This document shows, piece by piece, positions 48,701 to 51,034 of a stretch of DNA of 64,000 bases. The position numbers and the translations under genes are program-made. The notes under the pieces are model-generated. The model did not search any database, was not told the DNA's origin, and saw only the letters and a list, made by a program, of their open reading frames with translations. The stretch lies in assembly GCF_009749525.1 (NCBI RefSeq), contig NZ_WOAC01000021.1, positions 1-64,000 on the forward strand, written 5' to 3'. Positions within the stretch are counted from its first letter, which is position 1. Each line of letters starts with the position of its first letter. Source of the stretch: Mesorhizobium xinjiangense. GTDB taxonomy: Bacteria > Pseudomonadota > Alphaproteobacteria > Rhizobiales > Rhizobiaceae.

Positions 48701-48814
48701 GAAGTGAAGCATTGAATGGTGAAGTGGTGAATATTGATATGGAATAAGAACTTCTTTTGTAGTCGGATATAGAAATACAATTTCACCATTCACCATTCAC
48801 CATTCACCATTCAC
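48701..48814. repeat. TTCACCA heptad repeat with a complementary left part
   Basis: The right side has four tandem TTCACCA units plus a partial one (48782-48814). The left side (48701-48736) holds TGAATGGTGAAGTGGTGAA, the complementary words, so the two parts can pair. The right array ends 13 bp before the queA ATG. It belongs with the repeat at 12601-12679. Confidence 0.8.
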
Positions 48815-48827
48815 GCCACCCATTGCC

Positions 48828-49907
48828 ATGCGTGTCGATCTTTTTGACTTTCAACTCCCCGAAGACCGGATCGCGCTGAGGCCGGCGAGCCCGCGTGATG
48901 CGGCGCGCATGCTCGTCGTCCCGCCGCACGGCGATTTTCAGGACCGCGTCGTGCGCGACCTGCCGGTATTTCTCCGGCCGGGCGACGCGGTGGTCTTCAA
49001 CGACACCAGGGTTATTCCCGCCCAGCTTGAAGGCATCCGGCGGCGCGGCGAGGCGATCGCCCAGGTCGACGCGACGCTGCACATGCGCATGGCCGCCGAC
49101 CGCTGGAAGGCTTTCTTGCGCCCGGCCAAGCGCGTGGCGGTCGGCGATCGCATCCACTTCGGCCATTCGAACAATTCCTGCTTTGTCGGGTCGCTCGACG
49201 CCACGGTGGCGGAAAAAGGCGAGGGCGGCGAGGCACTGCTTGTCTTCGATCTTTCCGGGCCGGTGCTGGACGAGGCGCTGCACGCTGTCGGCCATGTTCC
49301 ACTGCCGCCCTATATCGCGTCGAAGCGGCCCGACGACGCGCGCGACCTGACCGACTACCAGACCGTCTATGCGCGCGAGGAGGGAGCAGTGGCGGCTCCG
49401 ACGGCCGGCCTGCATTTCACGCCCGAGCTCTTCGACGCGCTGGACGCCCGAGGTGTCGAGCGCCATTTCGTGACGCTCCATGTCGGCGCCGGCACGTTTC
49501 TGCCCGTCAAGGCCGACGATACCAAGGACCATCGGATGCACGCCGAGATCGGCCATGTCGATGCCAAGACGGCAGCCGCCCTCAACGCGGTCAAGGCGCG
49601 CGGCGGGCGCATTGTCTGTGTCGGCACGACATCGCTCCGATTGATCGAAAGTGCGGCCGATAAGGACGGTGCGATCGCCGAATGGTCGGGCGCGACCGAC
49701 ATCTTCATCACGCCGGGTTATCGTTTCCGTGCCGTCGATATGCTGATGACCAATTTTCACCTGCCGCGCTCGACGTTGTTCATGCTGGTCGCCGCCTTCA
49801 GCGGACTGGAACGCATGAAGGCGGCTTACACTCATGCCATAAAGACGGGCTACCGCTTCTATTCCTATGGCGATGCCAGCCTGCTCGCCCGGAGCGACGC
49901 CGAATGA
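48828..49907 (+). CDS. queA: S-adenosylmethionine:tRNA ribosyltransferase-isomerase
   Basis: This 359-residue enzyme transfers the ribosyl group of SAM to 7-aminomethyl-7-deazaguanine in tRNA to make epoxyqueuosine. Motifs include [50 protein letters not shown] and [15 protein letters not shown]. The heptad repeat lies just before the ATG and no ribosome-binding site is seen. The stop overlaps the tgt start as ATGA, fitting a queuosine operon. Confidence 0.96.
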
Positions 49908-51034
49908 CCGAAAAATTCACCTTTCGCGTGCTGGCCACGGACGGCAAGGCGCGGCGCGGCGACATCACGATGCCGCGCGGAACGGTGCGCACGCCCGCCT
50001 TCATGCCGGTCGGCACGGGCGGCACGGTCAAGGCCATGTATATGGACCAGGTGAGGGCGCTTGGCAGCGACATCATCCTGGGCAACACCTATCACATGAT
50101 GCTGCGACCGGGCGCCGAGCGCGTGGCGCGGCTTGGCGGCCTGCATGAGTTAGCCCGCTGGCCGTGGCCGATCCTCACCGATTCGGGCGGTTTTCAGGTC
50201 ATGTCGCTGGCGCAACTGCGCAAGCTCACCGAGAAGGGCGTCACCTTCAAGTCGCATGTCGACGGGGCGCGCCATGAGATGACGCCCGAACGCTCGATCG
50301 AGATCCAGGGCCTGCTCGATTCCGACATCCAGATGCAGCTCGACGAATGCGTGGCGCTGCCGGCCAAGGACGGCGATATCGAGAAGGCGATGGAACTGTC
50401 CCTGCGCTGGGCCGAGCGCTGCAAGGCGGCCTTTGGCGATCAGCCGGGCAAGGCGATGTTCGGCATCGTCCAGGGCGGCGACAACCCCGTCTTGCGCGAA
50501 CGCTCGGCGAGCGTGCTCAAGGCGATGGACCTGAAAGGCTATGCCGTCGGCGGACTGGCTGTCGGCGAGCCGCAGGCGGTCATGCTCGACATGCTCGAGG
50601 CGACCTGTCCCGTCCTGCCGCAGGACAAGCCCCGCTACCTGATGGGCGTCGGCACACCCGACGACATCGTCAAGTCGGTCGCCCGCGGCATCGACATGTT
50701 CGACTGCGTGATGCCGACGCGCGCCGGCCGCCACGGCCTGGCCTATACGCGCCGCGGCAAGATCAATCTGCGCAATGCGCGCCATGCCGAGGATCCGCGC
50801 CCGCTCGACGAGGAAAGCGGGTGTCCGGCCGCGCGCGACTATTCGCGCGCCTATCTGCATCACCTCGTCAAGTCGGGCGAGGCGCTGGGCGGCATGCTTT
50901 TGACCTGGAACAACCTGTCCTATTACCAGAGCCTCATGCAGGGCATCCGCGACGCAATCGAGGCCGGGCGGTTTGCCGACTTCGCCGCCGAGGCGACCGA
51001 GGGCTGGACGAAAGGCGATCTGCCGGTCCTTTGA
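49904..51034 (+). CDS. tgt: tRNA-guanine transglycosylase, zinc site degenerate
   Basis: This 376-residue enzyme swaps guanine for preQ1 in the wobble position of tRNAs. The catalytic core is intact: [34 protein letters not shown] and [14 protein letters not shown] with its catalytic Asp. The usual CxCxxC...H zinc ligands are not: Ser305, Cys307, Ala310 and Asn336 occupy the four positions. Coupled to queA by 4 bp overlap. It may fold without zinc or use another stabilising contact. Confidence 0.95.

Follow-up and report, generated by a model that had tools for sequence, protein, structure and literature searches.

A ligand-poor tRNA-guanine transglycosylase in Mesorhizobium xinjiangense, common to the examined Tgts of its order

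Judged from its sequence, the tRNA-guanine(34) transglycosylase (Tgt) of Mesorhizobium xinjiangense appears to be a zinc-free form of a familiar enzyme, and this form is common to all Tgts of the same order (Hyphomicrobiales) that were examined. The protein is most probably an ordinary, working, preQ1-inserting Tgt from a lineage that gave up the structural zinc site and put protein packing in its place. The zinc-binding domain is described as one of the two hallmarks of Tgt (PMC6165067); no mention of zinc loss in Tgt was found among the titles and abstract openings of open-access papers that were listed (for two of the searches, 20 of 64 and 20 of 2,089 papers).

The tgt gene and its zinc-ligand positions

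The window (the whole stretch of DNA analysed, 64,000 nucleotides) carries tgt together with queA (Table 1). The encoded protein matches TIGR00430, the Tgt equivalog profile, over residues 7-366 with 459.6 bits (cut-off 306.75), and a genome search found only this one Tgt in M. xinjiangense. Immediately 5' of queA, at 48782-48814, a 7-base unit (TTCACCA) is present in 4.7 perfect copies, flanked by a peptidyl-prolyl isomerase-like gene and queA. The genome also holds queG, queF and the QPTR importer, with no match to QueD and two weak hits to QueC (21 and 20 bits, both below the cut-off), none of them full-length. Since QueF, Tgt, QueA, QueG and QPTR are present without QueD or a full-length QueC, queuosine is probably made by salvage, from imported preQ0 or preQ1.

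Table 1. Features of tgt and queA; coordinates are those of the window
Feature	Coordinates	Strand	Basis or remark
queA, 359 aa, ATGA 4-base overlap with tgt start	48828..49907	+	NF001140, 473.1 bits (cut-off 324)
tgt, ligand-poor; encodes a bacterial tRNA-guanine(34) transglycosylase of 376 aa	49904..51034	+	ORF, profile match
Asp93, general acid/base (Zm D102)	50180..50182	+	invariant, 145/145 ligand-poor Tgts
Asp267, nucleophile (Zm D280)	50702..50704	+	invariant, 145/145 ligand-poor Tgts
Former zinc subdomain, residues 285-346	50756..50941	+	bears dimer hot-spot places Y313, Y317, H320
Codon of Ser305, at the position of the first zinc Cys (Zm C318)	50816..50818	+	phmmer alignment
Cys307 codon, sole zinc Cys retained (Zm C320)	50822..50824	+	phmmer alignment
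Codon of Ala310, at the position of the third zinc Cys (Zm C323)	50831..50833	+	phmmer alignment
Codon of Asn336, at the position of the zinc His (Zm H349)	50909..50911	+	phmmer alignment

Residues were mapped by phmmer alignment to the Tgt of Zymomonas mobilis (Zm; 1ozm), whose zinc ligands, C318, C320, C323 and H349, were placed on this alignment. The Z. mobilis stretch ECHCAVCQ aligns to ESGCPAAR, and TEHN to TWNN, gap-free in this region, and the alignment does not place the ligands elsewhere in the protein. The M. xinjiangense enzyme lacks the zinc-type motif (Cys-X-Cys-X2-Cys plus His), carrying Ser305, Cys307, Ala310 and Asn336 at these places; a sequence-only reading had held that three of the four zinc ligands were lost, and its four residues and their numbers proved exact. 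From these residues we infer that structural zinc is not bound. The zinc ligands of E. coli Tgt were reportedly the subject of work by Chong et al. in 1995.

The residues at these places were counted in 145 distinct ligand-poor alphaproteobacterial Tgts (146 with that of Bartonella queenslandensis, L248, which counts on 145 omit; rows gapped at any ligand position, or with 300 or fewer aligned residues, were dropped). Position 305 is Ser in 127 and Cys307 is retained in 129, while position 310 is A in 86, S in 33, T in 15, L in 9, and M and H in 1 each; position 336 is N in 77, A in 20, H in 17, I in 15, V in 11, S in 4 and T in 1. Bradyrhizobium-type Tgts (L087, L186, L188, L189) carry Trp at 307 with Thr310 and Ile336; in the three named Bradyrhizobium among the matches listed, Trp307 and Ile336 look as if they might fill the hole left by the metal.

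Spread and history of the ligand loss

Neither the first nor the third zinc cysteine is kept in any of 177 further Hyphomicrobiales Tgts examined, 0 of 111 from the same family (63 genera) and 0 of 66 from other families of the order (43 families). These Tgts were drawn from 70 of 142 matching order genomes, 78 chosen genomes and 29 more of a genus labelled g178; split-gene pieces (L170-L174) and two copies of the gene in the window (L001, L002) were left out before counting. Recurrence of the losses throughout these 177 rules out chance or a sequencing error as their cause. The loss is genuine and belongs to the whole order as sampled rather than to this gene; the survey of Hyphomicrobiales Tgts that the sequence-only reading had proposed shows the first and third cysteines lost in 177 of 177.

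The other orders of the class are mixed: all four ligands are present in 42 of 59 Tgts (53 families and 58 genomes, out of 167 genomes with a match outside the order) and not in 17, which include five with Ser-Cys-Ser-His, one with Cys-Cys-Ser-His and one with Cys-Cys-Leu-His. Three distant class members, L157-L159, all with the full Cys-Cys-Cys-His set, are part of this count and lie outside both the 245-row tree described below and the alignment behind the set of 145. Partial states are seen in L118 (Cys-Cys-Leu-His), L117 (Cys-Cys-Ser-His) and L235 (Cys-Leu-Leu-His), in which the loss may have been caught half-way.

A scan of named records (at least 80 loci, a sample) extends the comparison. 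Among the matches listed, ligand-poor Tgts belong to Bartonella queenslandensis, an uncultured Bartonella, Hoeflea, Mesorhizobium, Microvirga, Bradyrhizobium and a Hyphomicrobium MAG, and zinc-type Tgts to Acidocella, Acetobacter, Asaia and Komagataeibacter; the Pelagibacteraceae listed are ligand-poor in a different manner (Val-Lys-Leu-Asn in four, Cys-Leu-Leu-His in one). All 37 named Tgts from outside the Alphaproteobacteria, again among the matches listed, have all four ligands.

No second, zinc-type Tgt copy was seen in the order and family genomes, where one copy is usual. Genomes with several matches (G015, G032, G061, G205, G282) were considered as possible carriers of such a backup; their additional matches are weak or belong to split genes, an inspection that covered all of these pieces but the second ones in G015 and G061.

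How often the ligands were lost depends in part on the tree. In a 67-row gene tree of hand-chosen rows (32 from the order, 45 ligand-poor), built with residues 300-340 removed and without the long-branched order members L099, L100, L160 and L226 and the class members L148 and L152-L155, constraining the 32 order rows together gave a slightly better likelihood (p-AU 0.53), so these sequences allow a single loss at the base of the order or earlier. Constraining all 45 ligand-poor rows together was rejected in the same tree (90 log units, p-AU 0.0035); because this single-loss constraint fails, we claim only that the ligands were lost more than once within the class. In a FastTree of 245 rows (again without rows of 300 or fewer aligned residues), the order's rows fall into several separate ligand-poor groups interspersed with zinc-type rows; this topology, whose deep branches are weak, argues against one shared loss in the order. 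State changes number 12 on 245 rows, 13 on 107 and 8 on 67, all on single-gene trees whose deep branches are weak.

Catalytic core, fold and the former zinc subdomain

The catalytic and base-recognition residues of the Z. mobilis enzyme, D102, D280, D156, Q203, G230, L231 and V233, have their counterparts in D93, D267, D147, Q190, G217, L218 and V220, all invariant in the 145 ligand-poor Tgts, and the GGLAVG loop (216-221) is intact in M. xinjiangense. Dimer hot-spot residues in Z. mobilis are given as F92, W326, Y330 and H333 (PMC5395182). Hot-spot residues Y317 and H320 are found in 145 of 145 ligand-poor Tgts; the place of W326 is taken by Tyr313, which is Tyr in 136 of 145 ligand-poor and 36 of 58 zinc-type alphaproteobacterial Tgts, and that of F92 by Leu83 (50150-50152), Phe in 139 of the 145. 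Across six pairs, dN is 0.02-0.11 against a dS of 0.26-0.66; selection on tgt is purifying.

The fold is predicted to be unchanged despite the ligand loss. An AF2 model, made from an alignment of the M. xinjiangense protein with 46 of the at least 80 named loci (zinc-type relatives included; the models hold no metal), has a mean pLDDT of 92.9 and a pTM of 0.91, with residues 301-360 at 94-98, and contains the TIM-barrel fold with its C-terminal subdomain. Compared with 1ozm, it gives a Foldseek TM of 0.94 with an rmsd of 1.3, and a VIA Z of 55.9.

The former zinc subdomain, whose limits (285-346) are our choice, was compared between groups with one sequence per family, rest-of-protein identity matched at 0.60-0.76, the four ligand places removed and rows of 340 or fewer aligned residues dropped. 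Measured against the remainder of the sequence, its conservation is +0.021 in ligand-poor Tgts (57 families), against -0.049 in zinc-type alphaproteobacterial Tgts (38 families) and -0.054 in 27 non-alphaproteobacterial Tgts; the difference between ligand-poor and zinc-type alphaproteobacterial Tgts is 0.069 (bootstrap 95% 0.033-0.111). The greatest difference among 17 windows along the protein, 0.099, falls at residues 286-325, adjacent windows coming next (0.059 and 0.053), and the greatest in the opposite direction is -0.060, at 186-225. Columns tightened in ligand-poor Tgts include 312 Asp, 313 Tyr, 314 Ser, 335 Trp, 286 Lys and 277 His. Such tightening fits a subdomain kept in place by packing rather than metal; shared descent makes the groups non-independent, and a clade effect could be the source of the higher conservation.

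Columns 46, 143, 277, 286 and others contrast strongly between the ligand-poor and zinc-type groups. As specific compensating changes, the columns inspected (part of 13) gave no significance after correction for kinship; none can reach it, because the supported branches offer no more than 4 independent pairs.

Function, alternative explanations and implications

Evidence on function comes from relatives. The B. henselae enzyme (bTGT), expressed in an E. coli queDF tgt mutant, is reported to yield Q-tRNA from preQ1 down to 10 nM, in a complementation described as partial (PMC11570991; the word 'zinc' is absent from its main text). In Sinorhizobium meliloti, tgt is described as required for Q-dependent phenotypes, with preQ1 giving no bypass (PMC3568095). 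Both enzymes are presumably ligand-poor, to judge from the counts for genus and family. Genus g178 is probably Bartonella, because one of its Tgts is 86% identical to that of B. queenslandensis and has no adjacent queA. A Tgt match was found in 40 of the 41 g178 genomes searched, and all 30 of the Tgts examined (from 39 intact matches; rows of 340 or fewer aligned residues dropped) are ligand-poor, 26 with Ser-Cys-Ala-Asn and 4 with Ser-Cys-Thr-Asn. In one g178 genome, G546, all that was found of Tgt is a set of pieces interrupted by several stops (G546:C1:568859-569890), from which it follows that the genus can lose Tgt. By analogy with the B. henselae enzyme in E. coli, the M. xinjiangense Tgt would insert preQ1 at G34.

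That the protein is probably active without zinc, as first proposed, remains the best-supported conclusion, although the argument then offered, an intact queA, is weak by itself; stronger support lies in the unchanged catalytic residues and most of the dimer hot-spot residues, in purifying selection and in the Bartonella and Sinorhizobium publications. Intermediates in other orders suggest how such an enzyme may have arisen: the cysteines would go first, as in the Ser-Cys-Ser-His Tgts, and the histidine would drift afterwards. Packing and hydrogen bonds in the neighbourhood of Ser305, Cys307, Ala310, residue 336 and the tightened surroundings (R311, D312, Y313, W335) would then keep the subdomain bearing the dimer helix in place. 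G34 would be exchanged for preQ1 as usual, and the tRNA would pass to QueA and QueG.

A metal might still be bound, through Cys307 and other residues such as His277, His319 or His320. The retention of Cys307 while its three partner positions drift points this way, as does the rise of His277 with ligand loss, from 8% of 38 zinc-type to 84% of 57 ligand-poor family representatives. However, His277 persists in 10 of 16 proteins without Cys307, including the three named Bradyrhizobium with Trp307, while His319 and His320 are about equally conserved in zinc-type Tgts (0.87 and 1.00); leaving 277 aside, no column that is Cys or His in the majority of ligand-poor representatives drops strongly in the zinc-type ones. 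Structural zinc usually has four ligands, and one Cys with one His falls short of that number. A substitute site through other ligands is therefore unsupported, its only strongly rising column outlasting Cys307, and we regard continued metal binding as quite unlikely. That the enzyme is instead impaired or decaying, zinc loss reflecting relaxed selection on Tgt or queuosine, is highly improbable: no Tgt match was found in 7 of the 150 order genomes searched (several of them incomplete), and the Bartonella-like genome G546 has its stop-bearing pieces, yet a match is kept in 143 of the 150 and in 198 of 199 family genomes searched, the gene is under purifying selection with invariant catalytic residues and a relatively more conserved subdomain, and Tgts of relatives are reported to be active or required (PMC11570991, PMC3568095).

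Zinc sparing, the pathway having adapted to low zinc, is compatible with a working enzyme in which packing replaces the metal, and is rather unlikely as the driver of the loss. FolE1, QueD, QueC and Tgt are all stated to need zinc (PMC9508795), and M. xinjiangense, with its importer, lacks a QueD match and has only the two low-scoring QueC hits. QueC is nevertheless represented by a near full-length hit (at least 176 bits) in 19 of 61 family genomes (matches above the 22-bit cut-off occur in 57 of the 61, most of them short and partial). The Tgt was examined in 10 of the 19, and because all 10 are ligand-poor, loss of QueC and loss of the Tgt ligands are uncoupled; nor were zinc-regulated twin copies seen. 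The salvage state seems common in the family, and is not what removed the zinc ligands.

Known systems place the putative metal-free Tgt in context. The Z. mobilis enzyme (1ozm, 1pud) and zinc-type relatives share with it family, full length, 56-58% identity, catalytic residues and predicted fold, and differ in having a Cys-Cys-Cys-His zinc site where M. xinjiangense has Ser-Cys-Ala-Asn. B. henselae bTGT comes from the same order and has the same GGLAVGE at 216-222, but serves what is described as a salvage pathway without QueA (PMC11570991). Zinc-free (C-) ribosomal proteins such as S4 have likewise lost structural zinc cysteines and kept their role; C+ and C- forms are reported to coexist in some cases and to spread by transfer (PMC3087516), whereas the order's Tgt is, as a rule, a single ligand-poor copy. 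Eukaryotic QTRT1 and QTRT2 have the Tgt fold with a C-terminal zinc subdomain, and both are described as keeping zinc, even QTRT2 with its altered catalytic residues, the reverse of the situation in M. xinjiangense (PMC6165067, PMC4425180).

A large natural clade of ligand-poor Tgts, together with apparent intermediates, makes the role of zinc in Tgt directly testable, and the same clade offers a route to how a protein replaces a structural metal. We think it somewhat probable that bacterial Tgt has no requirement for metal, and that several alphaproteobacterial lineages (this order and, apparently separately, the Pelagibacteraceae) have a metal-free Tgt in which tighter constraint on the subdomain replaces zinc. 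In genomes that also lack QueC and QueD, apparently including this one, no zinc enzyme would then stand between imported preQ0 or preQ1 and queuosine.
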